Source of the DNA: a virus
Strand: one strand, 5' to 3'
IMG/VR virus record: IMGVR_UViG_3300043774_001251
Coordinates: 1-20,363 of that record
Length of the DNA: 20,363 nt
Shown: piece after piece, positions 2,372 to 19,242 of the stretch
Numbering within the stretch: the first letter of the stretch is position 1
Layout of the letters: each line of letters opens with the position of its first letter
Notes under the pieces: generated by a model
The model's database searches: none
What the model saw: only the letters and a program-made list of their open reading frames with translations
What the model was told of the DNA's origin: nothing
Position numbers and translations under genes: made by a program

Positions 2372-2374
2372 GAT

Positions 2375-5225: not shown

Positions 5226-5810
5226 TTATTGGCTGAAGTTAATTTCATATTTAGGATTGGCTGTTATCCACATAGGGATCGAATATCTGGCGTTTAAAAT
5301 TTTGTCTACGTGATGCTCATACTCTTCTCCTTGGGATGGAAAAACAATTGCCTCAAAGGCTTTTGGTGTGTAAGAGTATTCTAAGCTATCAAACTTTATT
5401 GTTCCATCATTTTCATTAGAGTTAAGGTATAAAACAAAACTATATTTAAAGTGACTATTGTCGTTTGGACCTGCGTCTAGATGCCTATTTACAATTGCAC
5501 CAGGAAACTGTTTTGCTAAATGAAAAGAGGTAACATATAGCTCTTCTGGATCATTATATGCAAGCTTTATTTGCTGAACAACATCCCTGAATAAAAGACG
5601 TAGCTCTTCGTGTATGTCAGGTATTTTTTCAAGAGTTGGGTTTGAGTCTGTCCAAACCTCATCAACCCCGAATCTCCATACACACCTGTTGGGATTGCCC
5701 ATTTCAGAGTAAGTGCTAAAATTATTAATGTTGAGGTCAATATAGTCGATATAAAAATCTGCTTCTCGTGGTGTAATAATGTTTGGAAGTATCTTAATAT
5801 TTTTATTCAT
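5226..5810 (-). CDS. 2OG-Fe(II) oxygenase, prolyl 4-hydroxylase type
   Basis: The double-stranded beta-helix core shows the full metal and cosubstrate set: NRHLDAG gives the iron ligands H110 and D112, YEHHVDK the distal histidine (H166 or H167), and ARYSIPMWI the arginine (R175) that binds 2-oxoglutarate. The length (194 aa) suits a minimal P4H-like enzyme that hydroxylates a protein side chain or small molecule using O2. I chose the ATG at 5810. A TTG at 5822 would add four residues but has AGAAAGG directly abutting it. It is divergent from a GT8-like glycosyltransferase, whose promoter overlaps its 5' end. Confidence 0.85.
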   Translation of the reverse strand: MNKNIKILPNIITPREADFYIDYIDLNINNFSTYSEMGNPNRCVWRFGVDEVWTDSNPTLEKIPDIHEELRLLFRDVVQQIKLAYNDPEELYVTSFHLAKQFPGAIVNRHLDAGPNDNSHFKYSFVLYLNSNENDGTIKFDSLEYSYTPKAFEAIVFPSQGEEYEHHVDKILNARYSIPMWITANPKYEINFSQ

Positions 5811-5815
5811 AACTC

Positions 5816-5843
5816 TTGACAACCTTTCTGCTTTTGATATAAT
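5816..5843 (+). promoter_or_regulatory. Strong promoter for the GT8-like gene
   Basis: TTGACA (5816-5821), 16-bp spacer and TATAAT (5838-5843) preceded by TGA. The predicted start of transcription (about 5850) is immediately before a 17-bp hairpin. Confidence 0.75.
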
Positions 5844-5852
5844 TATATCAGT

Positions 5853-5901
5853 AAGTTGCCTTTATGGGAAGGTGGAATTGGTGGTCCTATGAAGGCAACT
5901 T
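5853..5901 (+). promoter_or_regulatory. 17-bp hairpin at the 5' end of the GT8-like mRNA
   Basis: Arms 5853-5869 and 5885-5901 pair over 17 continuous base pairs, including two G-U pairs in the RNA, around a 15-nt G-rich loop. No T-run follows, so it is not a classical terminator. It would form the very 5' end of the transcript, as a stabiliser, a protein-binding site or an unrecognised regulatory RNA. The loop contains GGTGGAATTGGTGG, reminiscent of a tRNA D-loop, but no cloverleaf can be drawn. Confidence 0.6.
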
Positions 5902-5926
5902 GCTATTTAATTAGAGGGTATTGTGA

Positions 5927-6751
5927 ATGTCAAATTATTGTATAGTCTATAGCATCCATTCAGACAAGACAGATATAGATAATCTATTACAGTGGAGAGA
6001 GTTGCTTTTTTCTTTGAAGACATTGAGGTCTGTAAATAAAGAAGTAAACGTAAAGGTTTATGTGTCGCCGCCAGATCGCATTAACAATATAACCATGTTT
6101 CCAGACATGAATAATTTAGAAATTATTCCAATTAAAAATCCCAACAATAACTATTCTATTCTGGGAAAAGAAGTTGCCATGTGGCTTGAAATGAAATATA
6201 ATGCTGCATTTCATACGCTTAGCACATCTTCTTATGACAAAATTTTAATGATAGATCCAGATACAATTTATTACAAGGATCCAAATAGTCTTGTTGAGAA
6301 ATACCAAGAGGATGCTTTTTATTCTGCTCCAGATGAAAATCAAGAACTATTTAACTACCTAGAAACAGACAAAAAATATATGAATGATGGGGTTGTTATT
6401 GTTCCAAGATGGTCCCTTGACATTAAAGATGAACTACTGCTTGCTAGATATAACTTTACCAATGATATAATAAATAAGCATAAAGATACCTTTAGCGATG
6501 AAGATATTTTTTGGAGGAATAGTGTTGGTTGGGCATCTCCTCAATACGGCATATATGAATATTTATTAAATGCTAATAGACCAGTTAAATATTTTGATTC
6601 TAAAGATGTGGCTAACTTGTCAGATTGGAATTCAGAGCTACCCCCCATTATTTTGCACTATTGGCATGTTGGATATCAAGATCACTTGCCAAAAGAATAT
6701 TGGCCAGACATTGATGACACGCATATGACAAAAATCCACGAAAAGGTTTGA
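5927..6751 (+). CDS. GT8-like glycosyltransferase
   Basis: This 274-residue protein has a GT-A fold. It shows an N-terminal strand (YCIVYSIHSD), the nucleotide-sugar/metal motif IDPDT (D110, D112) after a hydrophobic strand, YMNDGVVIV (151-159), which is the acceptor-side motif of GT8-like enzymes, and LHYWHVG (243-249) carrying the late metal-binding histidine. It should transfer a sugar from a nucleotide diphosphate donor. Donor and acceptor cannot be read from sequence. The start has AGAGGG 8 nt upstream, beyond a long hairpin leader. The stop codon is embedded in the -35 box of the tRNA promoter. Confidence 0.85.
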   Translation: MSNYCIVYSIHSDKTDIDNLLQWRELLFSLKTLRSVNKEVNVKVYVSPPDRINNITMFPDMNNLEIIPIKNPNNNYSILGKEVAMWLEMKYNAAFHTLSTSSYDKILMIDPDTIYYKDPNSLVEKYQEDAFYSAPDENQELFNYLETDKKYMNDGVVIVPRWSLDIKDELLLARYNFTNDIINKHKDTFSDEDIFWRNSVGWASPQYGIYEYLLNANRPVKYFDSKDVANLSDWNSELPPIILHYWHVGYQDHLPKEYWPDIDDTHMTKIHEKV

Positions 6752-6776
6752 CAATTTGATAGCCATCATATATAAT
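6748..6776 (+). promoter_or_regulatory. Perfect consensus promoter of the tRNA cluster
   Basis: TTGACA (6748-6753), 17-bp spacer, TATAAT (6771-6776), all consensus. Transcription should start about 6 nt before tRNA-Asn. The -35 overlaps the TGA of the preceding gene. Confidence 0.85.
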
Positions 6777-6788
6777 TAAAACACAAAT

Positions 6789-6860
6789 TGACCATTAGCT
6801 CAACGGCAGAGCAGAGAGCTGTTAACTCTAAGGTTCCTGGTTCGAATCCAGGATGGTCAG
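6789..6860 (+). tRNA. tRNA-Asn(GUU)
   Basis: Acceptor TGACCAT/ATGGTCA, D stem GCTC/GAGC, anticodon loop CTGTTAA, T arm CCTGG-TTCGAAT-CCAGG, discriminator G. CCA is not encoded. The outermost anticodon-stem pair is a G-A mismatch. It is the first of four tRNAs from a shared promoter. Confidence 0.93.
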
Positions 6861-6914
6861 CTAATGGTGTGGTCCATACCACTCTCACAGGGTAGGAGAT
6901 AAAAATGGACACTA

Positions 6915-6985
6915 GTGACTATTGCATAGTGGTAGTGCGTAACCTTGCCAAGGTTAATGTGCGAGTTCGATTCTCGCTAGTCGCT
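6915..6985 (+). tRNA. tRNA-Gly(GCC)
   Basis: Acceptor GTGACTA/TAGTCGC (one G-U), D stem GCAT/GTGC, anticodon arm TAACC-TTGCCAA-GGTTA, T arm GCGAG-TTCGATT-CTCGC, discriminator T, which is usual for glycine. CCA is not encoded. A ribosome-site-like AGGAG and an ATG lie just upstream (6894-6907). Confidence 0.93.
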
Positions 6986-6989
6986 CTGT

Positions 6990-7066
6990 GGTCTTGTAGC
7001 TCAGTTGGTTAGAGCACTACCCTGTCACGGTAGGGGTCGCCAGTTCAAGTCTGGTCAAGATCGCCA
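6990..7066 (+). tRNA. tRNA-Asp(GUC)
   Basis: Acceptor GGTCTTG/CAAGATC (one G-U), D stem GCTC/GAGC, anticodon arm CTACC-CTGTCAC-GGTAG, T arm GCCAG-TTCAAGT-CTGGT, discriminator G. A CCA end is encoded (7064-7066), alone among the tRNAs here. It starts 4 nt after tRNA-Gly. Confidence 0.93.
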
Positions 7067-7067
7067 C

Positions 7068-7140
7068 GCCTCTATAGCTCATCTGGTAGAGCGACGCACT
7101 TGTAATGCGTAGGTGACGGGTTCAAGTCCTGTTGGAGGCT
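7068..7140 (+). tRNA. tRNA-Thr(UGU)
   Basis: Acceptor GCCTCTA/TGGAGGC, D stem GCTC/GAGC, anticodon arm ACGCA-CTTGTAA-TGCGT, T arm ACGGG-TTCAAGT-CCTGT, discriminator T. CCA is not encoded. Last of the four-tRNA cluster. A TATAAT (7147-7152) follows directly and may help express the next gene. Confidence 0.93.
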
Positions 7141-7170
7141 CTGTAGTATAATTAATAAAGAGGAGAAGTT

Positions 7171-7983
7171 GTGAGATATACAGAAAGTATTGAGTATCCA
7201 GGTATTAATTTTATTAAAGATAATGCAGATTTTTATAAAGAAAAATTTATGAAAGATACAATATTAGTTTTTAGAAATGCAAATCTTTCTTACGATCAGC
7301 ACGAAGAATTACAAAGAGTTCTTGGAGATACCTTTGGATGGTTTCCAAACACTACCAGTGGCGGTATTTCTAGATATATTGAAAACCACTCAGCCAATCA
7401 TGCCGTTAATAAAAACAATAAAGCCGAAGTAATCTTGCCTTGGCATATTGAGCACCCATATCTAAAAAATCCTATTATTGCTGGATTGTGGAATATGTTT
7501 AAGTTTAACTTAGAAAAAGATCATGGAGAAACTTTATTTATAGATACCGCTAAGATTTATGCCATGCTTTCCAATGAAGATAAAGAGTTTTTGGATAAGT
7601 GTATAGTTAATTCATTTCCATATGGTAATGGCACAACAATGCAACGTGGTCCAGCAGTTGGGCCACATTGGCTTACTGGTGAAACAATTATAAGATTTAG
7701 TCTTAATGATATTAGAAAAAATTGGCATGACCTATATTCTTTTGATGGACGACAGCCAACAGAAGAAGAAAATGAACGATTTATAGAAATTGGTAACTGG
7801 GTTATTAACACTATCTGGAATAACGACGAGCATCTTTTAGTTCACCAATGGCAGCAGGGAGATGTCATTATCCCAGACTTACATAAACTGGCTCATGCGG
7901 TTAGAGGTGGATTTACTCCTGATGATAGAGAGTTTACTGGGCTGTGGTCTTACCAAACCACGGAAGAAGAGTCTTATCAATAA
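7171..7983 (+). CDS. TauD/TfdA-like 2OG-Fe(II) dioxygenase
   Basis: The 270-residue protein matches TauD-type clavaminate-synthase-like dioxygenases in layout. It shows the first iron ligands in PWHIEHP (H92, E94), GETLFIDTAKIYAML (119-133), and the distal region QGDVIIPDLHKLAHAVRG with H242 and an arginine in DDREFTGLW (R253) for 2-oxoglutarate. The length is typical. The predicted reaction is oxidation or hydroxylation of a small molecule or modified residue. GTG is the start, with AAAGAGGAG 5 nt upstream. It may be co-transcribed with the tRNAs, and it is followed by two putative virion genes. Confidence 0.85.
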   Translation: MRYTESIEYPGINFIKDNADFYKEKFMKDTILVFRNANLSYDQHEELQRVLGDTFGWFPNTTSGGISRYIENHSANHAVNKNNKAEVILPWHIEHPYLKNPIIAGLWNMFKFNLEKDHGETLFIDTAKIYAMLSNEDKEFLDKCIVNSFPYGNGTTMQRGPAVGPHWLTGETIIRFSLNDIRKNWHDLYSFDGRQPTEEENERFIEIGNWVINTIWNNDEHLLVHQWQQGDVIIPDLHKLAHAVRGGFTPDDREFTGLWSYQTTEEESYQ

Positions 7984-7987
7984 AGCA

Positions 7988-7996
7988 TGATATAAT
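7988..7996 (+). promoter_or_regulatory. Extended -10 promoter (TGATATAAT)
   Basis: The box ends 6 nt before the ATG at 8003, giving a leaderless transcript for the putative virion gene pair. Confidence 0.65.
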
Positions 7997-8002
7997 TAAA
8001 AC

Positions 8003-8284
8003 ATGGCTGAACATGCACTAATTACTTTATCTAATACAACTGCTCTTAGATTGACACCACTTGGAACACATTCTGGAATGGACTTTACCCTGCAAAATGT
8101 AAACGCTTCTGGATACATTTATATTGGTGGCGAAGGGGTTACTTCAGAAAATTATGGATTTAGGATTCTTCCTAATCACTCTGTCTCTTTTGAGCTACCA
8201 CCAAAAGATGCTTTGTTTGCTATTTCTTCTGTAGATGCAATGAAGCTTGCAAAGATCACAATGGGGCTAGAGGTTCAAGACTAG
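8003..8284 (+). CDS. Putative virion protein, beta-rich (93 aa)
   Basis: The protein is composed of short beta strands separated by Gly/Asn turns, for example SGMDFTLQNVNASGYIYIGG and NHSVSFELPPKD. This pattern is familiar from small phage decoration, fibre or baseplate proteins. There are no catalytic motifs and no cysteine. It overlaps the next gene by one base (TAGTG), so the two are translationally coupled and probably function together. The assignment is by style and context only. Confidence 0.65.
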   Translation: MAEHALITLSNTTALRLTPLGTHSGMDFTLQNVNASGYIYIGGEGVTSENYGFRILPNHSVSFELPPKDALFAISSVDAMKLAKITMGLEVQD

Positions 8285-8730
8285 TGGCTAGATTTACTCA
8301 TCCAGCATTTGGAGATGTTGGTGGTTTGACAACTGAGGTTAAAACATATTCTCCAGTTTGGTCTGGAACAGGGTTAGCTTTTACTGGTGCCCCAGCAACT
8401 GGGTCTTATGTCAAGATTGGCAATATGGTAATTGTACAAATAGAGGTTATTTTTACAAATGTTTCAAACTTTGGAACTGGCCAATACTCTCTGACCCTAC
8501 CGTTTGCTTCAAAATACCACACTGACGTTTATGGTGGATCTATCCATGACGTAGTTAATCAGGGTGTGGACCACTATAGCATCAAGGGTCATCTATCTGA
8601 TTCAAGCACGGCCATGACTATCTGGGGTGTTGGAAGTTCTGCAAAAGACGAACCCTTTGACCACAACAGTCCAATAAACCTTACAACGACAGACAAATTC
8701 CACATGTCATTTACATACATTTGTGAATAA
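8284..8730 (+). CDS. Putative tail-fibre/appendage C-terminal-domain protein
   Basis: The protein begins MARFTHPAFGDVGG and continues into a beta-rich domain with YSPVWSGTGLAFTG, GSYVKIGNMVIVQIEV and FGTGQYSLTLPF. Repeats of this kind (alternate hydrophobic strands, G-x-G turns, LTLP) are typical of receptor-binding or capping domains at the ends of phage and marine-virus fibre proteins. At 148 aa it is a stand-alone domain, without a long fibre shaft. It starts with GTG overlapping the upstream stop. It is a possible target for the nearby modification enzymes, by inference. Confidence 0.7.
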   Translation: MARFTHPAFGDVGGLTTEVKTYSPVWSGTGLAFTGAPATGSYVKIGNMVIVQIEVIFTNVSNFGTGQYSLTLPFASKYHTDVYGGSIHDVVNQGVDHYSIKGHLSDSSTAMTIWGVGSSAKDEPFDHNSPINLTTTDKFHMSFTYICE

Positions 8731-8739
8731 AATATCTTC

Positions 8740-8768
8740 TTGCAGAATAATAATTTTTCTGTTATAAT
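8740..8768 (+). promoter_or_regulatory. Promoter of tRNA-Glu
   Basis: TTGCAG (8740-8745), 17-bp spacer, TATAAT (8763-8768). The start of transcription falls within a few bases of the tRNA 5' end. It probably also serves the exonuclease-nrdH genes downstream. Confidence 0.75.
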
Positions 8769-8777
8769 TTTACATAA

Positions 8778-8850
8778 GGTCCGTTAGGGTAGCGGTCATC
8801 CCACCTGCCTTTCATGCAGGGCATCACCAGTTCGAATCTGGTACGGACTG
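8778..8850 (+). tRNA. tRNA-Glu(UUC)
   Basis: Acceptor GGTCCGT/ACGGACT (G-U at the first pair), anticodon arm CCTGC-CTTTCAT-GCAGG, T arm ACCAG-TTCGAAT-CTGGT, discriminator G. CCA is not encoded. It lies alone, 18 bp before the exonuclease gene. Confidence 0.92.
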
Positions 8851-8868
8851 CTTAGTAGAAAGATTTAA

Positions 8869-9438
8869 ATGATTACATATATTGGACTAGATGGAGAAAT
8901 GTCTAGTGCAGACATTCACACTGGTGGAAAACTTATTCAAATTGGTATGGCAAAAATGCAAGATGGAAAAATGATATCTATTGCTAGCATGCTAAATCCA
9001 GGTAGCATGGAGTGGTCTGAAGAGGCTGAAGCTGTCCATGAATTTACACAAGACTACGTCGAAAAGTTTGGGCTAGACCCATCACTGGTTGATCAAGAGC
9101 TTGCATCTTGGGTTGGTCATGGCTTAGAGCGTAGAGATACTATTGCCGTAGGCTTTAATGTTGGATCTTTTGATATGCCATTTGTAAAGCAATCATTACC
9201 AATTTTATTTAGCAAATTTTCTAGACGTACCGTTGATCTAAACGCACTAATTTTTTCTTTATCTGATACTGATAAGGAATTTCAAAAGATTAAAGCCAAT
9301 GCAAAACGCTATGCTGAGCAGCAAATGAACAACATGTTTGATGGATTTAAAAACAGGCAACACGATGCAGAATATGATTCCGTAATGGCATTGTATTGTT
9401 TCGAATACATTCGTAGTCTTATGAAAAAGGAGAAGTAA
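8869..9438 (+). CDS. DEDDh 3'-5' exonuclease (oligoribonuclease/DnaQ-like)
   Basis: All the acidic motifs are present: GLDGEMS (D8, E10) for Exo I, GFNVGSFDMPF (D102) for Exo II, and RQHDAEYDS with H165 and D170 for Exo III. HDAEYDS marks the DEDDh subgroup. At 189 residues it is a single-domain enzyme similar in size to oligoribonuclease. It should remove nucleotides from 3' ends using two metal ions, in RNA turnover or proofreading-like trimming. The start has AGAAAG 6 nt upstream. It overlaps nrdH by one base (TAATG). Confidence 0.88.
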   Translation: MITYIGLDGEMSSADIHTGGKLIQIGMAKMQDGKMISIASMLNPGSMEWSEEAEAVHEFTQDYVEKFGLDPSLVDQELASWVGHGLERRDTIAVGFNVGSFDMPFVKQSLPILFSKFSRRTVDLNALIFSLSDTDKEFQKIKANAKRYAEQQMNNMFDGFKNRQHDAEYDSVMALYCFEYIRSLMKKEK

Positions 9439-9659
9439 TGACAACAGTATACACAAAACCGTCATGCGTTCAGTGTGACATGACAAAGAGGTACATGGAC
9501 AAGCTTGGTATTGAGTATAATACCGTTGATATTACTGAAGATGAAGAAGCCCTTGATATGATTATGGAGCTTGGCTTTAAGTCAGCACCAGTAGTTATAT
9601 CAGATGCTGGCAGCTGGGCTGGGTTTCAGCCTGAAAAGATCAACCTTTTAGCTGCTTGA
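9438..9659 (+). CDS. nrdH: NrdH-redoxin
   Basis: The 73-residue glutaredoxin-like fold has the CVQC active site (10-13), which is the signature of NrdH, a cis-proline in SAPVV (P51) and the C-terminal WAGFQPEKI (60-68) close to the W-S-G-F-R-P-D-K motif. NrdH supplies electrons to class Ib ribonucleotide reductase from thioredoxin reductase. No reductase genes are in the window, so it may serve the host enzyme or one encoded elsewhere. It is translationally coupled to the exonuclease. Its stop overlaps the promoter of groES. Confidence 0.93.
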   Translation: MTTVYTKPSCVQCDMTKRYMDKLGIEYNTVDITEDEEALDMIMELGFKSAPVVISDAGSWAGFQPEKINLLAA

Positions 9660-9684
9660 CTTTTCTTTACTAAATTAGTATAAT
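9656..9684 (+). promoter_or_regulatory. Promoter of the groES unit
   Basis: TTGACT (9656-9661, overlapping the nrdH stop), 17-bp spacer, TATAAT (9679-9684). A 25-nt leader with a strong ribosome site follows. Confidence 0.8.
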
Positions 9685-9709
9685 AAATATATAACAGAGG
9701 GAGAACTTA

Positions 9710-10003
9710 GTGATCAAACCACTAGAAGATAAGGTTGTTGTAAAACCTATCATTGAAACAGAGAAGACCAGTTCAGCTGGTCTAATTATTGCAGCACTTG
9801 AAAAAGAACGTCCTACTGAGGCAATCGTTGTTGCGGTTGGTCCAGGCACTGTTTTTGGAAACGGAGACAAGATGACTATTGATCTTAAGATTGGAGACAA
9901 GGTTGTGTTCTCTAAGTATCAGGGTACAGAGATTACGGTAGATGGTGAGGATCTTTTGATTCTTGCATACCGTGACATTTTTGCTGTGCTTGAGGGAGAG
10001 TAA
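9710..10003 (+). CDS. groES: Co-chaperonin GroES (Cpn10)
   Basis: The 97-residue protein has the family start (IKPLEDKVVVKP), a mobile-loop region (ETEKTSSAGLII, about 16-28), VVAVGPGTV (41-49), the KIGDKVVFSKYQGTEI block and the final DLLILAYRDIFAVLE. GroES caps GroEL and sets the size of the folding chamber. Phage versions, such as T4 gp31, adapt the host chaperonin to fold a capsid protein, and no GroEL is present here. The GTG start has AGAGGGAG 6 nt upstream. It overlaps the next gene as TAATG. Confidence 0.93.
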   Translation: MIKPLEDKVVVKPIIETEKTSSAGLIIAALEKERPTEAIVVAVGPGTVFGNGDKMTIDLKIGDKVVFSKYQGTEITVDGEDLLILAYRDIFAVLEGE

Positions 10004-10191
10004 TGTCTTTGCCAGATCTTGATTGGTCTTACGACTATGAACGTGGTTATAAGGATGCATTAAGCAAAATGATTGAAAAGTTTAATCAAGAATATAACGA
10101 GACCGCTGCTGAAGATCCACACTTTGCTTTTTATGCAAGGTATGTTGTTGATACCTTACAGAAAGAGCTCGATCCGCAGATAGAAAATTAG
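10003..10191 (+). CDS. Small acidic hypothetical protein (62 aa)
   Basis: This is an aromatic-rich, acidic, mostly helical protein (DLDWSYDYERGYKDAL, then EDPHFAFYARYVVDTL). It overlaps the groES stop by one base and so is translationally coupled to it. The motif YERGYKDA is common in tiny phage proteins. No function is known. Confidence 0.7.
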   Translation: MSLPDLDWSYDYERGYKDALSKMIEKFNQEYNETAAEDPHFAFYARYVVDTLQKELDPQIEN

Positions 10192-10193
10192 CT

Positions 10194-10340
10194 ATGGGAC
10201 AAACGTGGATTGACATCTTGTCTGACCCCCATCATATTCTTGCTGACTTTATAATGAATGTTGGCTTTGAAATAGCTTTTGCCTGGCTTACATATTTGAT
10301 CATTATTAAAATTATTGATAATCGACAAAGAAAAAAATAA
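10194..10340 (+). CDS. Tiny single-span membrane protein (48 aa)
   Basis: MGQTWIDILSDP is followed by an interfacial stretch, one long hydrophobic helix (about 24-41) and a basic tail (NRQRKK), giving an N-out/C-in membrane peptide. It starts 2 nt after the previous stop, inside the groES unit, and ends 2 nt before the next small gene. The tight spacing and sensible composition support it. Function unknown. Confidence 0.6.
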   Translation: MGQTWIDILSDPHHILADFIMNVGFEIAFAWLTYLIIIKIIDNRQRKK

Positions 10341-10342
10341 TC

Positions 10343-10498
10343 TTGAATGATTTTGAAGCTGAATTGGCAAGCGTTAGCAAAAAACTTGATCAAATTGAAG
10401 CTGAACTTGTAATGAACCAAGAAGCCATAGAATCTATAGAAATGAGGCTTCGTCTGCTTAAAACAGAGTTAGACTTTGAAGCTGATAAAATGGTATAA
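10343..10498 (+). CDS. Tiny coiled-coil protein (51 aa), TTG start
   Basis: The reading frame from TTG at 10343 encodes a heptad-patterned helix: EAELASVSKKLDQIEAELV, then MNQEAIESIEMRLRLLKTEL. It follows the membrane peptide by 2 nt, and the pair recall a small membrane protein plus coiled-coil (spanin-like or Rz-like) arrangement, though that is speculative. Its stop codon lies in the -10 box of the next promoter. Confidence 0.6.
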   Translation: MNDFEAELASVSKKLDQIEAELVMNQEAIESIEMRLRLLKTELDFEADKMV

Positions 10499-10499
10499 T
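10491..10499 (+). promoter_or_regulatory. Extended -10 promoter (TGGTATAAT)
   Basis: TGG followed by TATAAT, with a poor -35. It precedes the first cupin-like gene by 25 nt and overlaps the stop of the coiled-coil gene. Confidence 0.55.
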
Positions 10500-10524
10500 A
10501 TATAGGCAAACAGAAAGAGCTGGT

Positions 10525-11103
10525 ATGAACTTAAAAGACTTGGCACTAAAACCAACAGCCACCTATATTCAGGGGTACACAACAGAATACCCAGATAAAT
10601 GGGATTATTTTATTAACTTTGTTGACTACTGTAATAAGGTAGATTGGGTACAGCAAGACGAAGCAGAGCGTAAACGCTTTATTGAAAGTGGTCGCTTAAG
10701 AAAAGGTCTGTTACAAATTTGGGGATATTTTACCATGTTTGCAGAAAATCCAACCGAAACACCAGACATCATGATTAATATAGATAAACTAAATGCTCAA
10801 ATTAAATCTGATTATGGTGAAGAAAAAAGATCTTCTTTTGCAATCGTTAATTTTAGCAATGCTGAAAATGTAACAAACAGACATAATGACTTAACTCATA
10901 ATTTCTACGTACAGTGCATTGGCTCTGTTACATGGAAAATCTATGAATCAATTAGTTCACCAGAATATAAAGAGTATACGCTAGAGCCTGGAGATGCAAT
11001 TCTTGTGCCAGCTGGAGTTTCTCACGAAGTGGTAGCTCTAGAACCACGTGCTGCAATTACCATGGCCTTTCATGGACTAGGTGAAGAGGTTTCCGAAAAA
11101 TAA
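10525..11103 (+). CDS. JmjC/cupin-like putative 2OG oxygenase (paralogue A)
   Basis: The 192-residue protein ends in a cupin barrel. TNRHNDLTH supplies H120, D122 and H125, and after GSVTWKIYE and the turn LEPGDAILVPAGV the distal histidine is H167 in SHEV. R175 in EPRAAITMAFH could bind the cosubstrate. The H-x-D...H set matches JmjC/cupin-8-type Fe(II)/2OG hydroxylases. It aligns along its core with the protein at 11607-12164, with the same residue numbers for the ligands. The start has AGAAAGAG 7 nt upstream. The stop overlaps the next ATG. Confidence 0.75.
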   Translation: MNLKDLALKPTATYIQGYTTEYPDKWDYFINFVDYCNKVDWVQQDEAERKRFIESGRLRKGLLQIWGYFTMFAENPTETPDIMINIDKLNAQIKSDYGEEKRSSFAIVNFSNAENVTNRHNDLTHNFYVQCIGSVTWKIYESISSPEYKEYTLEPGDAILVPAGVSHEVVALEPRAAITMAFHGLGEEVSEK

Positions 11104-11594
11104 TGTATCCATTAATTTTAGAATATGATAACGCAATTGATCAAGAAGACCTAGACGCTATGCTTAGTATAGCCAACTCATCTTCTAATTTAGATTGGTC
11201 AAAAATGGATAACCTCGAAGAGACTGGACCGTTTTGGCTAGGCAAAAGAATGATAATTACTGAAACAGTTTTACCATCATGGCATGAAAAAATTGTAAGC
11301 CTGAGATCAGAAATTGATTTTTTTAACATTACAGAGCCAAGGAAAATTCAAAGATTTAACTATGGTGACTCTTTAGGGCCATTAGTTGATAGTGATCATG
11401 TTGATTCAATTAGACATGGAGCAATTCTTTTTTTAAATGAGCCTAGTGGATCTGAAATATATTTTCCAAGAATTAATTACAAGGTAAAAGCAAAGGCTAA
11501 TAGACTTGTTGTCTATGGCGGAAACCAAGAATACATTATTCGTGGGTCAAAAAACCAAGATTATTTATATTTTTCAACTGTATTCATGAGCTAG
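11103..11594 (+). CDS. P4H-type 2OG-oxygenase-like protein with an incomplete active site
   Basis: The 163-residue protein keeps the P4H layout: IQRFNYGD, then DSDHVDS with H99 and D101, then AILFLNEPSGSEIYFP. Where the intact family member at 5226-5810 has YEHHVDKILNARYS, this one reads YIIRGSKNQDYLYFS. Both the distal histidine and the 2OG-binding arginine are missing. It may be non-catalytic, a partner of the cupin-like proteins on either side, or an enzyme with a different metal geometry. The frame is intact and coupled to the upstream gene by TAATG, so it is not decaying obviously. Confidence 0.7.
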   Translation: MYPLILEYDNAIDQEDLDAMLSIANSSSNLDWSKMDNLEETGPFWLGKRMIITETVLPSWHEKIVSLRSEIDFFNITEPRKIQRFNYGDSLGPLVDSDHVDSIRHGAILFLNEPSGSEIYFPRINYKVKAKANRLVVYGGNQEYIIRGSKNQDYLYFSTVFMS

Positions 11595-11606
11595 AAAGAG
11601 GATAAA

Positions 11607-12164
11607 ATGTTTACTACTGAAGAAATTAAGGATGCAATTGCAAATCCTAAATTAGTTATTAAAAAGAAGATTTTTTTAAACACCCCTTCTTGGGAAAGCT
11701 TTATTGGTCATCTTAATTATGAGTTTTACAATGACATATATCCCCCAGGTGATGAGGACGAGCCTTATAACCCAGACGATACCGTTATCAATGGGGTTAA
11801 TATTCGTGAGCACTTTTATTTGATGAACACTGCAGCTGATAACCCAAAGTTTTTCCCTCAGTTTTTTGACATACAGGATGAGCTTAATAAAGTAATGGAA
11901 ACAGAATACTTTGGGTCTTTTACTTTAATAAACTTTGTGGGTGGTGAGCGACCAATAAATGTTCACTGTGATCCAAGACACTCATTTTATTGGCAAACTC
12001 ATGGAACGTCAATCTGGCAAGTTTTTTCAGAAAAAGATCTTGAGAATCCACTAAAAGAATATGAGATAGGTCAAGGCGACATGATCTTTGTTCCCCACGG
12101 CATATATCATAGCGTTGTTGCTCCAGAGCCAAGAACGGCTATTTCATTTATGTATAGTCTTTAA
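11607..12164 (+). CDS. JmjC/cupin-like putative 2OG oxygenase (paralogue B)
   Basis: This 185-residue protein has the same core as 10525-11103: NVHCDPRHSFYW (H120, D122, H125), TSIWQVFS, GQGDMIFVPHGIYHSVV (H168) and EPRTAISF (R176). The N-terminal half differs, with an acidic Pro-rich stretch (YPPGDEDEPYNPDD), which may set substrate choice. AGAGG precedes the ATG. It ends the rightward unit and faces a leftward glycosyltransferase. Confidence 0.75.
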   Translation: MFTTEEIKDAIANPKLVIKKKIFLNTPSWESFIGHLNYEFYNDIYPPGDEDEPYNPDDTVINGVNIREHFYLMNTAADNPKFFPQFFDIQDELNKVMETEYFGSFTLINFVGGERPINVHCDPRHSFYWQTHGTSIWQVFSEKDLENPLKEYEIGQGDMIFVPHGIYHSVVAPEPRTAISFMYSL

Positions 12165-12183
12165 GTTATTTTTAACTTTAAGA
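12158..12183. terminator. Weak bidirectional terminator candidate
   Basis: Arms 12158-12168 and 12173-12183 pair over 11 positions with one T-T mismatch around a TTTT loop. It spans the stop codons of two convergent genes. It is AT-rich and so of low stability. Confidence 0.35.
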
Positions 12184-13134
12184 GTAATATAAAGTATCAG
12201 AGTAAGTTCCATACTTTAATACGTGGTTTCTATACCATTCTTGATGAGCATTGTAAAGCTTTTCATTAAAATTTTCATTAACTATTCCACTATAAAACTT
12301 TTTTAAAAAATCGTGAGAATTTGATATGTAAATTAAAGAAATATCCTTAAGCTCTTCTTTGTACTTTTTGTGTTTTAAATCTGGTTGGTCTAAGAAAAAT
12401 GCAAGCCTTCTATTTTCAAAGCCACCTTCATAATCATGAAAAACATAAGATTTAGTGGGAGCAACTATTTTAATTTTGCTGGCGTATAAAGATATAGACA
12501 TATATGGCTCTTCTCCGTTGTAAAAAATACTAGGGTTATACTTATGATTATAAAATATTTCTGAATATCCAAATGCAAATCCCCCACAAAAATAGTTAGT
12601 CAGTTCTCCAAAAACGTTACCAGCATAAGCTTTGGTTCTGCCACCATACCTTGAAGGATGTCCTGGCTTATCTTCTAAAATTTCTACAGAAAGAACATTG
12701 TTTCTAGTGTCATAAAATAAGGTTCCGTCTAAATACCCATAGTTGTGAGGGTAAACAGAATAAATAAAAGATCCCCAATGCTTTGTTGCTTTTTCGTAAT
12801 CATCTATTATTACTGTGTCCCAATTATCAATAAACCTTGAATGAGCGTCAACTTGCAAATAATATCTATGTATAATAGGATTAATATGTTCCTGTGTCTG
12901 TCTCCTAGCATACCCAACCCCCCTGGCCTCAAGGATTCCGACTTGTTTAAACTTTAAAGTTGATTTAAAGCTTTGCACTATCTCCAAGATTTGTTTTTCA
13001 AATGGGTCATTGTCTTGAACAAAAACAGATAAGGTGATTTTTTCTGGATATGTTGCTTTTTCTAAAATATCTTTTATTGTAGGAACAAGCTCTGTGTCTG
13101 CCATTGACGCTATAGAAACAAAAATAGTATTCAC
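12178..13134 (-). CDS. Skp1-GlcNAc-transferase-like glycosyltransferase (PF11397-type), copy 1
   Basis: The 318-residue protein fits the GlcNAc-transferase family whose best-known member acts on hydroxyproline of Skp1. It shows IFVSIASMADTELVPTI at the start, ARGVGYARR (70-78), YYLQVDAHSRF with the D-x-H metal motif (D96), NWDTVII, GFAFGYSEI, NGEEPYMS (206-213) and VFHDYEGG (231-238). The GTG start lies 6 nt after TGCTATAAT. Compared with the copy at 16782-17693 it has a longer C-terminus. Donor and acceptor are unknown. Its presence among hydroxylase-like genes suggests action on a hydroxylated target. Confidence 0.85.
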   Translation of the reverse strand: MNTIFVSIASMADTELVPTIKDILEKATYPEKITLSVFVQDNDPFEKQILEIVQSFKSTLKFKQVGILEARGVGYARRQTQEHINPIIHRYYLQVDAHSRFIDNWDTVIIDDYEKATKHWGSFIYSVYPHNYGYLDGTLFYDTRNNVLSVEILEDKPGHPSRYGGRTKAYAGNVFGELTNYFCGGFAFGYSEIFYNHKYNPSIFYNGEEPYMSISLYASKIKIVAPTKSYVFHDYEGGFENRRLAFFLDQPDLKHKKYKEELKDISLIYISNSHDFLKKFYSGIVNENFNEKLYNAHQEWYRNHVLKYGTYSDTLYYS

Positions 13135-13140
13135 AGATAT

Positions 13141-13149
13141 ATTATAGCA
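13141..13149 (-). promoter_or_regulatory. Extended -10 promoter (TGCTATAAT)
   Basis: On the minus strand the box ends 6 nt before the GTG at 13134, giving a leaderless transcript. It is divergent from the promoter at 13179-13187. Confidence 0.65.
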
Positions 13150-13178
13150 TTTAGAGCATATCAGCGAGCTTCTAAATG

Positions 13179-13187
13179 TGATAGAAT
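13179..13187 (+). promoter_or_regulatory. Extended -10 promoter of the glycosyltransferase operon (TGATAGAAT)
   Basis: The box lies 22 nt before the ATG at 13210, which has its own ribosome site (AGAAAGAG). No clear -35 is seen. Confidence 0.45.
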
Positions 13188-13209
13188 AGATGTATTCAGA
13201 AAGAGATCA

Positions 13210-14154
13210 ATGGCCAATATAGCGTTTTTAGGAAATTTTAGATTTGACTTTAGTTCAGAAACTCATCACGTAAAAAGCCTAGAGTCTTTAGGGCATACTG
13301 TTGTAAAGCTGCAAGAAAATAGAGTAAGTAGTCAAGATGTATATCATGCTGCTTCAAAGAGTGATTTATTTATCTGGGTTCATACGCATGGCTGGAAGAC
13401 ACCTGGAAATTTCCCTATGGAAAAAGTTTTAGAAAAACTAAAGGCCAAGGGAATCCCAAGCATGACATATCATCTAGACCTATGGCTTGGTCTAGAAAGA
13501 CAAAAAGATTTAGACTCTGATCCAATCTATAAGCACATTGATCATTTTTTTACGGTAGATAGCAAAATGGCAGATTGGTTTAACGAAAATACAAACGTAA
13601 AAGGTCATTATATGCCTGCAGGAGTATTTGGTGAAGAGGCATACTACAAGCCCACAATAAAGAGACTTGATTTAGTTTTTGTTGGCAGCAAAGGATATCA
13701 CCCTGAGTGGCCATATAGACCGCAACTAATTGATTGGTTATCAGAAAACTATGGAAAAAGATTTAGGCACTATGGGAATGGTGGAGTTAAAGCAATTAGA
13801 GGTGACGAGCTAAACACGCTATACGGAACTACAAAAATAGTTGTTGGAGATACATTATGTCCAAACTTTAACTACCCAAGTTATTGGTCAGACAGGGTTT
13901 ATGAAACTCTAGGCCGTGGAGGATTTATTATTCATCCATATATTCAGGGAATGGAAAAAGAATTTACAGACAAAGAGCATTTAGTATTTTATGAATATAA
14001 CAACTTTGAGCAGCTAAAAGAACTAATTGACTACTACCTAGAGCATGACGAAGAGCGTGAGAAAATTAGGTTAGCTGGTCATAATCTAGTTAAGAATAAC
14101 TATACATATATGCATAGGTGGCAAAGTATCCTTAAGGAGCTTGGCGTTGAGTGA
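13210..14154 (+). CDS. GT-B glycosyltransferase, CgeB / Glyco_trans_1_2 type
   Basis: The 314-residue protein has an N-terminal Rossmann-like half (NIAFLGNFRFDF, LFIWVHTHGW, GIPSMTYHLD) and a C-terminal donor domain: LDLVFVGSKGYHP, a short helix with TTKIVVGDTL, then YWSDRVYETLGRGGFIIHP and a final EKIRLAGHNLV. SDR-x-(Y/F)E-x-L-x-x-GG is the donor-site motif of CgeB-like enzymes. It should transfer a sugar from a nucleotide donor. It is the first gene of a four-gene overlapping operon, and the AAGGAG in its tail serves the next gene. Confidence 0.82.
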   Translation: MANIAFLGNFRFDFSSETHHVKSLESLGHTVVKLQENRVSSQDVYHAASKSDLFIWVHTHGWKTPGNFPMEKVLEKLKAKGIPSMTYHLDLWLGLERQKDLDSDPIYKHIDHFFTVDSKMADWFNENTNVKGHYMPAGVFGEEAYYKPTIKRLDLVFVGSKGYHPEWPYRPQLIDWLSENYGKRFRHYGNGGVKAIRGDELNTLYGTTKIVVGDTLCPNFNYPSYWSDRVYETLGRGGFIIHPYIQGMEKEFTDKEHLVFYEYNNFEQLKELIDYYLEHDEEREKIRLAGHNLVKNNYTYMHRWQSILKELGVE

Positions 14155-15004
14155 CATAAAAGCATACTTGTTTAGTATAGGAAATAGAGCATTTGCTAGT
14201 CATAAAGATGACTTTGGTTTTGTGAGGCAAGCCTTTATCAGAAATAAAATTGAAATTGTTGAGACCTTGTCTTTGCCAGAGGTTGATAAAGCATTTGTGG
14301 TTTTGTCTGGATCTGACCTAACTGGATTAGAAGAATTTGTATCTGAAAGACTACAGGTTATTAAAAAAATAGTTTTGTTTATTACTTCAGATGAGTGTGG
14401 AACTTTTAATGTTGACAAAATAAAGCATCCTGATATTAAAATTTGGAAACAGTATCCATATCCAAAACACAAAAAATACTTTAAGATGCCTTTGGGAGCT
14501 CCCATAATGCTTGAAAAAAACATTCCACAGTATAGTCAAAAAGATATTGACTTATTCTTTGCTGGACAAATTACTCATCAAAGAAGGCAAGAGCTTGGTG
14601 TTGTTATGGATTCTTTAAATACAGAGCACTATTTGCCTACTGCTGGATTTATGCAAGGTAGTCCTTCTAAAGATTACTATGCAAAAGTTGCTAAGGCAAA
14701 AGTAGTTCCTGCACCTGCAGGCTCAGCTACAATAGATTCATTTAGATTTTATGAGGCTCTAGAGCTATTGGCTATGCCTATTGGAGATACAAAAAATTCT
14801 TCTGGAGAAGACTTTGATTATTGGGACTATGTATTTGAACAAAGCGTTCCATTTCCCAAAACAAATGATTGGAATTCTTTACCATCTATGGTTGATCAAA
14901 TAACATCTGAGTACCCTGAAAATATGCACAAGGTTGTTGCCTGGTGGATTAAATACAAACGAGATTTCTGCAATAAAATTATGGAGCAAATAAATGAACA
15001 TTAA
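14147..15004 (+). CDS. Exostosin-like (GT47-type) glycosyltransferase
   Basis: The C-terminal half shows IDLFFAGQITHQRRQEL, YYAKVAKAKVVPAPAGSAT and DSFRFYEALELLAMPIGD, the pattern of exostosin-type GT-B domains (arginine after the strand, then S-x-R-x-x-E-A-L). I chose TTG at 14147 rather than 14141 because AAGGAG (14134-14139) then lies 7 nt upstream; this gives 285 residues and an 8-nt overlap with the preceding gene. The N-terminal half is weakly conserved. Acceptor unknown. Confidence 0.72.
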   Translation: MSDIKAYLFSIGNRAFASHKDDFGFVRQAFIRNKIEIVETLSLPEVDKAFVVLSGSDLTGLEEFVSERLQVIKKIVLFITSDECGTFNVDKIKHPDIKIWKQYPYPKHKKYFKMPLGAPIMLEKNIPQYSQKDIDLFFAGQITHQRRQELGVVMDSLNTEHYLPTAGFMQGSPSKDYYAKVAKAKVVPAPAGSATIDSFRFYEALELLAMPIGDTKNSSGEDFDYWDYVFEQSVPFPKTNDWNSLPSMVDQITSEYPENMHKVVAWWIKYKRDFCNKIMEQINEH

Positions 15005-15755
15005 TGATATTACAATTGTTATGCCAACATCAGTACTGCCAAGTCATCCAGATACTGGAATTCTTGATGAAGTAATCAGGAGTATTAGACAATACTTTCC
15101 AGATAATGAGATTGTCTTACAGGTTGATGGGCTTCGAGAAGAACAGTCTCATCGTAAAGAGCAGTATGATGAGTATAAAAGCAGGGTGCTTTGGAAGTGT
15201 TTGCATGAATACAAAAATGTGCTGCCAATAATGTTTGACGAACATTCTCATCAGTCTACTATGATGCAACAAAGCCTTCACCTAATTACTACCCCATTAA
15301 TGTTTTATATTGAAAGTGATATAGCCCTAAGAGACAATCTTAATCTTGATTGGCAAAAAGCTTTGGATATGCTTGACTCAAAAACAGCATATACCATAAG
15401 GTTTTACACATTTGAGACACAGGTTGTACCAGCACACGAACCACTCATGATGGATAGAGATGGAGATTTTGTGCAGACCTTTCAGTGGAGTCAGCAACCG
15501 CACATAACGTATGTGTCTTACTACAGAGATATGGTTTTGCCAAATACTAACTATAAATCTTTTATTGAAGATACCTTTTATGGCAAGGTTTTTTCCGACT
15601 GCTACGAAACTAAGGAAGCGTGGAATAATCACAGACTATGGCTATACAATCCATTAAACAAAGATGATATTAGAATTGTTAACAACCTGGATGGAAGAAA
15701 GCACCTTAGAAAGTTTACCTCTGATGATGAGGCGTGGGGATTAACTGAGGCATGA
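14994..15755 (+). CDS. GT-A (family 2-like) glycosyltransferase
   Basis: The 253-residue protein opens with the family-2 pattern DITIVMPTSVLPSHPDT...EVIRSIRQYFPDNEIVLQVDG, and has FYIESDIALRDN, in which ESD takes the place of the DxD metal motif after a hydrophobic strand. The later DTFYGKVFSD and NLDGRKHLRKF may form the acceptor side. It overlaps the upstream gene by 11 nt, with TGGAG before its ATG, and the next by 4 nt (ATGA). Confidence 0.75.
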   Translation: MNINDITIVMPTSVLPSHPDTGILDEVIRSIRQYFPDNEIVLQVDGLREEQSHRKEQYDEYKSRVLWKCLHEYKNVLPIMFDEHSHQSTMMQQSLHLITTPLMFYIESDIALRDNLNLDWQKALDMLDSKTAYTIRFYTFETQVVPAHEPLMMDRDGDFVQTFQWSQQPHITYVSYYRDMVLPNTNYKSFIEDTFYGKVFSDCYETKEAWNNHRLWLYNPLNKDDIRIVNNLDGRKHLRKFTSDDEAWGLTEA

Positions 15756-16795
15756 GACTAGGAATAATTGCAAGATCTGATAAGACTGGCTTGGGCAATC
15801 AGACTTACGAGCTAACTAAGATGCTTAATCCTGATAAGGTTTTGCTGATTAATTCTACCCACTTTAATCAAAACCAGCAGTTTCCAGAGCTGTATGATGG
15901 CTACAACGTCATAGAAACTAGCAGGGGGTTTGCCACAGACAAAGAGGCTGCGGCCTTCCTGGAGGGCCTGGACGCCGTTCTGAGCTGTGAAACCTTCTAT
16001 AGCACAACCTTAATTGATTTAGCCAAAAAGATGGGCATCAAGACACTGCTACAGTATAACTTTGAATTTTTAGATAACCTGAAGCATCCAGATTGGCCAC
16101 TGCCAGATGTTCTAATTTCTCCTAGCTTTTGGAATTTTGACCTTGTGTATGATAAGTTTAGCAGTAAATGTAAGGTTGTACATTTACCACCACCAGTTTC
16201 TGAAGAAAGATTTGCTAAAGCAAGATCAATTAATCAAGGCAGTAACTTAAATAAAATACTTCATGTTGCTGGTAAAATTGCTGATGCAGATCGAAATGGA
16301 ACTAACACTGTAATGCAAATGTTAAAGTATTCTACTGCAGATTATGAGCTAGTTATTAAGGTTCAAAATCCAGAACGCCTGGAAGATATTTCAAAAGATC
16401 CTCGTTTAAGTATAGATACTTCTAACCCAGATAGCAATATGGATCTTTACTCTGGATTTGATGCAATGGTTCTCCCACGTAGATATGCTGGACTTTGTTT
16501 GCCAATGAATGAAGCATTAATGAGTGGGCTTCCTGTATTTATGACAGACATATCCCCAAACAATTTTGTTTTGCCAAAAGATTGGCTGATAGAGTCAAAG
16601 CAAATAGGAAAAATTAAGACTAGGTCTATTCTGCCAGTTTATGAGGCAAACCCAAGAAAGCTTGCTGAAACAATTGATAATTTTATTAATGATAAAAATA
16701 AAAGTATAGAAAAAGAAAAAGCTTTTATGCTTGGACAAGAACTTTTTTCTGTTGAATCTTTAAGAGAAAAATATATTAATCTTATTTGTGAGTAG
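15752..16795 (+). CDS. GT4-like (GT-B) glycosyltransferase
   Basis: The 347-residue protein starts MRLGIIARSDKTGLGNQTYEL, the glycine-rich acceptor-side loop of GT4-like enzymes, and in the donor half has KILHVAGKI, LVIKVQNPE and FDAMVLPRRYAGLCLPMNEALMSGLPVFMTD, the E-x7-E region (P-x-E-A-L-x-x-G-x-P). It should use a nucleotide sugar with retention of configuration. It ends the operon and overlaps the leftward gene by 14 bp tail-to-tail. A short GC-rich segment lies at about 15940-15990. Confidence 0.85.
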   Translation: MRLGIIARSDKTGLGNQTYELTKMLNPDKVLLINSTHFNQNQQFPELYDGYNVIETSRGFATDKEAAAFLEGLDAVLSCETFYSTTLIDLAKKMGIKTLLQYNFEFLDNLKHPDWPLPDVLISPSFWNFDLVYDKFSSKCKVVHLPPPVSEERFAKARSINQGSNLNKILHVAGKIADADRNGTNTVMQMLKYSTADYELVIKVQNPERLEDISKDPRLSIDTSNPDSNMDLYSGFDAMVLPRRYAGLCLPMNEALMSGLPVFMTDISPNNFVLPKDWLIESKQIGKIKTRSILPVYEANPRKLAETIDNFINDKNKSIEKEKAFMLGQELFSVESLREKYINLICE

Positions 16796-17693
16796 AATAA
16801 AATTCCTTAAATGAAAATCCTACCATACTTTCATATGCCTCTATTGTTCGATTAGCTCCTAGGCCAAACTGGCCCTCCTCAATGCCACATAAAATACGCT
16901 TTTGTTTTTCATATGAAATTTTTTGTAGCTCAGTCCAGGAGATAGGCCTAATGTTGTTATCGTTCCAAACCTTTTTAAATCCTCCACGATGATAAAAGTG
17001 GTAGGCTAATACAATTGATGGAGAGTATATGTCCCAGCCTTTAGTCCAGGCTCTTGCAGCAAAACAAATCTCTTCTCCAAAGAAGCTTATTTCTGGATCA
17101 TACGGAATTTCTTTTACAATTTCTCCGTAGGTGAATACAAATCCAGCTAGTATTGTATTTGATGGTTCTGGTATAGACCTCTCTGGATCATCAAACTCTA
17201 CACGCTCTGCCCCCCATTCATTAGATCTTCTAAGTATGACTTTTTGTTTGGTAGGATGCACTGCCCAGTCTCCAACTTGCTTGGTATGCAAGACCGTGGT
17301 CTTTCCTTCTAGGCTGTATGGGGCAGGAAAAGAAGAAAGAATTACTTTATTGCTTGTGAGCATTTGAGCATCTTTTAACTGTTTAATAGCAAGCCTATCC
17401 CAATTTTCAACAAACCTCATATGAGAATCTATTTGCAAAAAATATGTTTCTTCTTGGTATAGAGACATAGCTTTTGATCTTGCAAATCCAACGCCTCTAG
17501 CATCTCTTGGGTGCATTGATATTAGGGAGTATTTAGGTAAAAATGAGAGGTCTGGTCTTTCACGATCCGTACCCTGATAAACAATACCAAAATGCAAACG
17601 CTCTGGCTTCTCTGCTTTTTCAACCATATCAATTAAGGTTGACTGTAATTCTGGATCCCTATAGCTTGCTACTGAAATAAAAATAGTTGACAT
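16782..17693 (-). CDS. Skp1-GlcNAc-transferase-like glycosyltransferase (PF11397-type), copy 2
   Basis: At 303 residues it is close to the standard family pattern: TIFISVASYRDPEL, ARGVGFARS (65-73), YFLQIDSHMRFVENWD (84-99) with the D-S-H metal motif, ILAGFVFTYGEI, FFGEEICFAARAW (204-216) and YHFYHRGG (231-238). The ATG at 17693 is the start: an upstream in-frame ATG at 17702 lies within the -10 box and cannot be transcribed from that promoter. It is similar to copy 1 and also leftward, and the two bracket the rightward operon. Confidence 0.87.
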   Translation of the reverse strand: MSTIFISVASYRDPELQSTLIDMVEKAEKPERLHFGIVYQGTDRERPDLSFLPKYSLISMHPRDARGVGFARSKAMSLYQEETYFLQIDSHMRFVENWDRLAIKQLKDAQMLTSNKVILSSFPAPYSLEGKTTVLHTKQVGDWAVHPTKQKVILRRSNEWGAERVEFDDPERSIPEPSNTILAGFVFTYGEIVKEIPYDPEISFFGEEICFAARAWTKGWDIYSPSIVLAYHFYHRGGFKKVWNDNNIRPISWTELQKISYEKQKRILCGIEEGQFGLGANRTIEAYESMVGFSFKEFYSTHK

Positions 17694-17700
17694 ATATACC

Positions 17701-17709
17701 ATTATAGCA
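17701..17709 (-). promoter_or_regulatory. Extended -10 promoter (TGCTATAAT)
   Basis: On the minus strand the box ends 7 nt before the ATG at 17693. It directly follows a terminator for the upstream gene. It decides the start of the glycosyltransferase. Confidence 0.7.
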
Positions 17710-17753: not shown

Positions 17754-18038
17754 TTACTTCTTAGCAGTCTTCTTTGCTACTGCAGCAGGCTTCTTCTTAA
17801 CTGGAGCCTTCTTTGGTGTAGCCTTCTTTAATGCTTCCTCAACATCCTTAGCGTTTGGAGTAATACCAAATGCAGGATCGTTAGGATTGATGTAGCGAAT
17901 TGCTACTGGCAAAATTGCTGCTACTAGTGACCATGCCAGGTCTAGTGGGTCTGTGACGCCAGCCAAGTAAAGGGCTGATGCTGCTCCCAAAACGCTACGC
18001 CCATATGAGGCAAGCAGTGCTTTTAATGATGTATTCAT
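17754..18038 (-). CDS. Membrane protein with lysine/alanine-rich tail, possible holin
   Basis: The ATG at 18038 has AAGGAG 6 nt upstream, better than an in-frame ATG 72 nt earlier that lies within the neighbouring gene. The 94-residue product has two hydrophobic segments (about 14-27 and 33-50) and, after NPNDPAFGITPN, a histone-H1-like tail of KKA/KKP/AKK repeats (about 71-94). Two spans and a cationic tail fit a holin or a membrane-to-DNA or wall tether. I cannot decide between these. A terminator follows. Confidence 0.75.
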   Translation of the reverse strand: MNTSLKALLASYGRSVLGAASALYLAGVTDPLDLAWSLVAAILPVAIRYINPNDPAFGITPNAKDVEEALKKATPKKAPVKKKPAAVAKKTAKK

Positions 18039-18957: not shown

Positions 18958-19242
18958 TTATTGCTCCGTCGTTAATGCTTGCCAGGTATTAGCCCAGTCT
19001 CGCTTTGTTTTGTGCTTATTAAACTCTCTAGATATGTCGCCTTGGTCGAGATAAACTCCACCCCAAACTCCAGTATTCTTGCCAGAAATTCCATTAGCAA
19101 AACAAATCCTGCGAACTGGACAAGACTTACATATGCTGTCAATCTCTTCTCTAATTTCTGGTTGTTCTTCATAGTTATCGAAAAAGTCATTAGTTTCCAT
19201 ACCCAAACAAGCTGAGTCATCTTTCCAAAGATGTGGCTCCAT
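18958..19242 (-). CDS. WhiB-like [4Fe-4S] regulatory protein
   Basis: The 94-residue protein has the four cluster cysteines in Wbl order: C12 (SACLGME), C38 and C41 (ICKSCPV), C47 (RRICFA). These are followed by the family turn GVWGG (58-62). Wbl proteins bind the primary sigma factor domain and change promoter choice, often with a basic DNA-contact tail, here only moderately basic. Phage Wbl proteins (for example mycobacteriophage TM4 WhiB) can repress host whiB genes. This is the strongest sign of an actinobacterial host. The ribosome site GAGG overlaps the stop of the upstream gene. Confidence 0.93.
   Translation of the reverse strand: MEPHLWKDDSACLGMETNDFFDNYEEQPEIREEIDSICKSCPVRRICFANGISGKNTGVWGGVYLDQGDISREFNKHKTKRDWANTWQALTTEQ

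Follow-up and report, generated by a model that had tools for sequence, protein, structure and literature searches.

A core glycosyltransferase cassette and an accessory layer of predicted hydroxylases around a fibre locus in an actinophage fragment

The window analysed here is a stretch of 20,363 bases, positions 1 to 20,363 of the IMG/VR virus record IMGVR_UViG_3300043774_001251. Between 5226 and 17702 it carries oxygenase-like and glycosyltransferase (GT) genes, read in a first-pass annotation as a possible hydroxylate-then-glycosylate pathway. The twelve open reading frames listed there were all present, with minor start-codon shifts at 5822/5810 and 17702/17693. The reading preferred here, for which the balance of confidence is even, has two layers: a core glycan cassette and an accessory hydroxylation of a virion fibre or surface protein, coupled perhaps for the accessory genes alone. 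GT_C to GT_G, the core cassette, probably assemble a glycan of several sugars on a virion protein, and would do so without a hydroxylase of the prolyl 4-hydroxylase (P4H) or JmjC type. The accessory layer (OX1, TauD, JmjC1, JmjC2, the dead OX2, GT_A and GT_B) lies around the fibre locus at 8003-8730, and its most likely role is to hydroxylate side chains of the fibre or of another surface protein of the virion. GT_A or GT_B may glycosylate some of the resulting hydroxyls, as an optional step. What the genes are, whether their active sites are intact, that the core cassette does not depend on P4Hs, that alleles of GT_B, TauD and the fibre gene were swapped and that relatives carry a P4H array with a fibre gene are all shown by the data; we infer the substrate, the virion as target and any order of reactions. 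The features concerned are listed below (2OG, 2-oxoglutarate).

5226 to 5822, minus strand: OX1, P4H-type 2OG-Fe(II) oxygenase (PF13640 5e-8, over the cut-off; HxD..H..R intact)
5927 to 6751, plus strand: GT_A, probable GT-A-type GT, divergently oriented from OX1 (weak Pfam matches only)
7171 to 7983, plus strand: TauD, TauD/TfdA-family oxygenase (PF02668 7e-20, over the cut-off; HxE..H intact)
8003 to 8284, plus strand: small conserved protein, a marker of the fibre locus (homologues beside collagen-like genes in G009, G014 and G018)
8284 to 8730, plus strand: variable fibre-like protein (phrog_13144, unknown function; relatives here carry collagen-like N-terminal repeats)
10525 to 11103, plus strand: JmjC1, cupin/JmjC_2 oxygenase (PF08007 2e-6, over the cut-off; HxD..H intact)
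11103 to 11594, plus strand: OX2, P4H-fold pseudo-oxygenase (phrog_61, 2OG oxygenase, 7e-7; no Pfam match)
11607 to 12164, plus strand: JmjC2, paralogue of JmjC1 (PF08007 2e-7, over the cut-off; HxD..H intact by alignment)
12178 to 13134, minus strand: GT_B, second PF11397 GT, lineage-specific (PF11397 3e-24)
13210 to 14154, plus strand: GT_C, GT-B glycosyltransferase of the core cassette (PF13524 7e-24)
14141 to 15004, plus strand: GT_D, exostosin/RXYLT1-like probable GT (PF24785, RXYLT1_C, 3e-4, under the cut-off)
14994 to 15755, plus strand: GT_E, GT-A fold GT (no Pfam match; AlphaFold2 mean confidence, pLDDT, 86.7)
15752 to 16795, plus strand: GT_F, group 1 GT-B glycosyltransferase of the core cassette (PF00534 8e-6, just under the cut-off; phrog_2170, GT, 6e-8)
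16782 to 17702, minus strand: GT_G, PF11397 GT of the core cassette (PF11397 1e-58; present in oxygenase-free relatives)

The window was classed as a fragment of an uncultured actinophage by its WhiB-like regulator (PF02467 profile), WhiB being an actinophage marker (PMC10202952). The related records are viral contig fragments, some of them near duplicates. The nearest relative is G001 (34 kb), whose shared proteins are mostly 85-98% identical, and the fragments G003 and L255 are further relatives. Isolated phages compared at the DNA level had no similarity to the window except in a tRNA gene.

The two gene classes were found to assort separately. Queried with GT_C, the viral contigs yielded 63 loci at 47-97% identity. 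GT_C and GT_F were present in 65 loci and GT_D/GT_E in approximately 49, in most cases accompanied by WhiB and the gene at 17754. Window-type oxygenases were almost always missing from the GT_C/GT_F loci. P4H-type genes were found in 3 of 31 related records with the window's GT cassette (G001, G009 and G028); these records are fragments, some near duplicates, and the P4H-free G008, G014, G017 and G018 are each about 100 kb. The cassette is conserved in many P4H-free records and so needs no P4H- or JmjC-type hydroxylase. The window-type TauD was seen in the window lineage only, no search for the TauD family having been made in the 31 records. PF11397 was present in 17 of the 31, without P4H in 16, and P4H occurred without PF11397 in two, giving no association between the families (Fisher p = 0.58). 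The co-occurrence of PF11397 and P4H expected of a Skp1-type hydroxyproline pathway was not found. The suggestion that a PF11397 transferase acts on a P4H product fails here as an obligate coupling, independent variation of the two families being among the outcomes that the first-pass annotation itself had named as contradicting it.

The accessory genes were distributed differently. GT_B occurs in the lineage with oxygenases and nowhere else, its only orthologues being those of G001 (53%) and G003 (38%), and all three copies are accompanied by oxygenases. The GT_A and OX1 pair is present in G001 and L255, and GT_A is missing from G003. OX1, the JmjC genes and GT_B travel together in the window lineage, with a similar set in the unrelated phage G004/G005, and hydroxylation and glycosylation may be coupled within this subset. 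G004/G005 have a second cluster, in which genes for P4Hs and for a homologue of JmjC1 alternate with two GT61 genes, one for a sugar nucleotidyltransferase and one of PF11397; it contains the closest P4H and JmjC relatives of the window outside its lineage. This one independent lineage gives the best sign that the two activities can be linked.

Four of the five oxygenase-like genes first proposed keep their iron ligands (OX1, TauD, JmjC1 and JmjC2), while OX2 is dead. OX1 belongs to PF13640 by profile match and by its H, D, H and R catalytic residues, and its closest relative outside the lineage is a P4H of G004/G005. The TauD metal motif comprises WHIEH and LAH, with H, E and H invariant in three relatives, and by sequence the protein is predicted to be a TauD/TfdA enzyme with the HxE motif of the clavaminate synthase/AsnO type. 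The TauD query found no relatives in viral contigs and no match among PDB sequences. JmjC1 and JmjC2 belong to the JmjC_2 family by profile over the cut-off and by HxD..H. Homologues of JmjC1 were restricted to the window lineage and G004/G005. Its AlphaFold2 model is weak as a whole (pLDDT 55) with a confident cupin core (80-87), and the best structure matches of this core were ycfD, NO66, MINA53, JMJD5 and a putative asparaginyl hydroxylase. By profile search and predicted fold, JmjC1 resembles protein hydroxylases.

The catalytic columns of OX2, where H, D, H and R are expected, read L, D, I and Y in both the window and G001, the two metal-binding histidines being lost. The G003 relative has LID in place of HxD. 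Among related array oxygenases in viral loci, 393 of 410 retain H, D/E, H and R/K. The ratio of nonsynonymous to synonymous substitution (dN/dS) in OX2 is 0.17, indicating purifying selection, so OX2 was taken as a pseudo-enzyme maintained despite the lost residues. It lacks the PF13640 HxD..H triad and by sequence is classed as a conserved non-catalytic protein of the 2OG fold. Lying between JmjC1 and JmjC2, it is perhaps a partner, activator or scaffold of its neighbours.

The seven proposed GTs held up to different degrees. GT_B, GT_C and GT_G are over Pfam cut-offs, GT_B and GT_G as PF11397 GlcNAc (N-acetylglucosamine) transferases; GT_F matches a GT-annotated PHROG, GT_E has the predicted fold of a GT, and GT_A and GT_D are probable. 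The GT_E model, with a confident fold, matched GT-A enzymes, among them POMGNT1, B4GALNT1, LH3, TarP and COLGALT1 in Foldseek. A GT_A paralogue in a related contig was just below the cut-off for PF03407 and matched PF01501 weakly, placing it close to GT8/PF03407. Queries with GT_A, GT_D, GT_E and GT_G found no match among PDB sequences, and a profile comparison of GT_C and GT_D detected no similarity. Five relatives (L052, L055, L072, L079 and L080) encode GT_D and GT_E as one fusion of about 550 aa.

Proteins of the window were compared with those of G001. The protein at 8003 is 98% identical and its neighbour at 8284 is 79% identical; GT_B is 52% and TauD 62% identical. The synonymous divergence (dS) is 2.4 for GT_B, 1.5 for TauD and 1.6 for the 8284 gene, and 0.06-0.8 elsewhere. 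These three genes are probably divergent alleles swapped in by recombination, judging from the sequences. Exchange by divergent homologues is a pattern common among surface-exposed traits. The fibre-like genes at 8003-8730 had no Pfam match and one PHROG match, of unknown function. A collagen-like substrate was sought in the window and none is present; collagen-like genes were also found in G014 and G018, which are PF13640-free. Close to genes for ribonucleotide reductase, G001 encodes a 464 aa protein in which a long tract is rich in Pro, Glu and Thr (PEPT; L093:7655-9049). This possible glycan acceptor was set aside, similar Pro-rich proteins occurring in the same two PF13640-free records.

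Other phages carry P4Hs in arrays behind a repetitive fibre gene. G009 (108 kb) has GT_C, GT_F, WhiB and the 8003 marker in common with the window. At 92244-100665 (L097) it encodes a protein of fibronectin III domains with (FFPP/FFPF)n at its end. Six genes for PF13640 oxygenases, all over the cut-off, and a DUF6065 gene lie directly behind it and a collagen-like protein, and a gene for a short-chain dehydrogenase/reductase (SDR) also follows. The same arrangement was found at 49078-54979 (L099/L100) in G005 (99 kb, GC 0.45 against 0.36). A DNA-pattern scan of viral contigs for the Phe-Phe-Pro (FFP) repeat returned at least 120 stretches. Among the matches listed, 72 of the 80 FFP genes that are followed by 2.5 kb of sequence have a P4H-type gene there on the same strand (36 of 42 clusters at 70% identity), and just 2 of 54 have one upstream. 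An array usually comprises 5-8 P4Hs along with two families resembling DUF6065, and large genes adjoining the arrays match tail-fibre and virion structural PHROGs. By Pfam, PF13640 was found in 36 of 38 FFP records and PF11397 in 6. An obligate pairing of PF11397 with P4H was rejected on these counts and on the independence of the families in the 31 same-cassette records.

None of 50,697 phage records matched the FFP protein. The repeat occurred once in the genome collection, in a contig that itself bears the phage module, and bacterial genomes are essentially free of the module. A literature search on phage prolyl hydroxylases with tail fibres and on DUF6065 found nothing. From genomic linkage, the module appears to be widespread in viral contigs and previously undescribed. 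It could, with about as much to be said for as against it, be a dedicated fibre-maturation system of many phages, including G009, in which a fibronectin-(Phe-Phe-Pro)n fibre is hydroxylated by an array of P4Hs and DUF6065 proteins; the window would then be a diversified, glycosylation-linked version.

Several observations were made on this module. About 90 of the loci L133-L252 carry the FFP fibre protein followed by a P4H array and DUF6065. L253 (JAFMJX010000128.1), a phage fragment of 5.3 kb that bears the module, had been assigned to a Chitinophagaceae metagenome-assembled genome. Some FFP-repeat proteins have a C-terminal Hint/intein-like domain (L155:6071-7393 and L195:5250-6659), and many others terminate in a Cys-rich tail. 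Relatives of DUF6065 adjoin adhesin/tail-fibre genes in archaeal tailed viruses (the haloviruses HRTV-17, L264, and HF1, L265).

The virion fibre, named as a candidate target in the first-pass annotation, gains comparative support from the accessory genes surrounding the fibre locus and from the P4H arrays behind fibre genes in relatives. Other findings weigh against the two-layer reading. No FFP gene or long collagen-like protein occurs in the window, G001 or G003, all of them fragments; on the sequence covered, the window and G001 fall outside the FFP-fibre/P4H-array group. The accessory layer is known from essentially one lineage and one unrelated phage. The HxE motif of TauD also fits enzymes acting on free amino acids.

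A strict pathway, in which PF11397 transferases place the first sugar on a fibre residue that a P4H or JmjC protein has hydroxylated, is unlikely. In the Dictyostelium Skp1 pathway a PF11397-type enzyme transfers GlcNAc to hydroxyproline made by a P4H, and both enzyme families are present in the window; in related phages, however, the presence of one family does not depend on that of the other, and no Skp1-like substrate was seen. This precedent, the restriction of GT_B to oxygenase-bearing members of the lineage and the interleaving in G004/G005 favour the pathway, but 16 records have GT_G and no P4H, and the P4H arrays are mostly without PF11397. It is also doubtful that the two classes have independent functions, with GTs modifying the virion or the surface of the host, for receptor masking or superinfection exclusion, and oxygenases serving metabolism or regulation by way of 2OG, amino acids or host proteins. 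Independent assortment in related records agrees with this, as does the interpretation of cyanophage 2OG oxygenases as 2OG/NtcA or DNA-repair genes (PMC3037559). The strong strand and side bias of the oxygenase arrays behind fibre genes argues against it, as do the P4Hs, JmjC and GTs interleaved in G005.

Hypermodification of DNA, with an oxygenase preparing bases for glycosylation, is very improbable. TET/JBP-type oxygenases do provide a phage precedent for base modification before glycosylation, and DNA had been suggested as a target on that ground. The marks of such a system were not found in 15 records, which are fragments: PF12851 (Tet_JBP) was over the cut-off in none, PF00303 (thymidylate synthase/hydroxymethylase) was in none, and PF00145 (C5-methylase) was only in the oxygenase-free G017. 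The window oxygenases are of P4H, JmjC_2 and TauD type, and DNA was dropped as a target. A role of JmjC1 and JmjC2 in hydroxylating host ribosomal proteins and tuning translation, as ribosomal oxygenases (ROX) do, is just as remote. The top structural matches of JmjC1 (ycfD, NO66 and MINA53) point that way, but they come from a weak model and are limited to the cupin core. The C-terminal dimerisation and winged-helix domains of ROX are absent from JmjC1 and JmjC2 (192 and 185 aa; 192 aa against 360-460 aa), and neither protein was placed in that family.

The two-layer reading was compared to other viral systems. In mimivirus and chlorovirus, viral hydroxylases and GTs act on collagen fibre proteins. 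The same kind of action on fibre proteins is proposed here, but those are giant viruses of eukaryotes, whereas here the viruses are bacteriophages with FFP repeats in place of collagen and many paralogous P4Hs. T4-like cyanophages carry multiple 2OG-Fe(II) oxygenases, read as 2OG/nitrogen signalling or DNA repair (PMC3037559). They likewise have several PF13640-type genes per genome; however, the first array gene is at most 33% identical to the closest among the matches listed and the FFP gene is without a match in isolated phages. The Nanopelagicales phages E7 and F5 are freshwater actinophages which, like the phages described here, have WhiB, a GT and collagen-like proteins in a variable island (PMC10202952). 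They differ in their 39 kb genomes, and the word 'oxygenase' is absent from the main text of that paper. Mycobacteriophages, also actinophages encoding their own GTs, place glycans on capsid and tail tube (Freeman et al. 2023, cited in PMC12619734), with no oxygenase layer mentioned where PMC12619734 cites that work.

Phage 2OG oxygenases are common and their role is unsettled, having so far been attributed to metabolism or DNA repair. The strict genetic linkage of P4H arrays to one repetitive fibre protein offers a concrete, testable substrate. If the proposal is true, bacteriophages use protein hydroxylation as giant viruses do. The window shows that one phage region can combine a GT cassette with hydroxylases, as two layers that evolve independently.

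The remaining features of the window include the following.

6789 to 7141, plus strand: four tRNA genes (Asn, Gly, Asp and Thr; ARAGORN)
18958 to 19242, minus strand: WhiB-like regulator (PF02467 1e-10; phrog_472)

Genes for RNase_T-type exonuclease, glutaredoxin and GroES-like proteins at 8869-10003 separate the fibre block from the oxygenase block. SLT_3 lysozyme-like and NlpC/P60 genes lie side by side at 1832-3133 and are probably involved in lysis or wall degradation.

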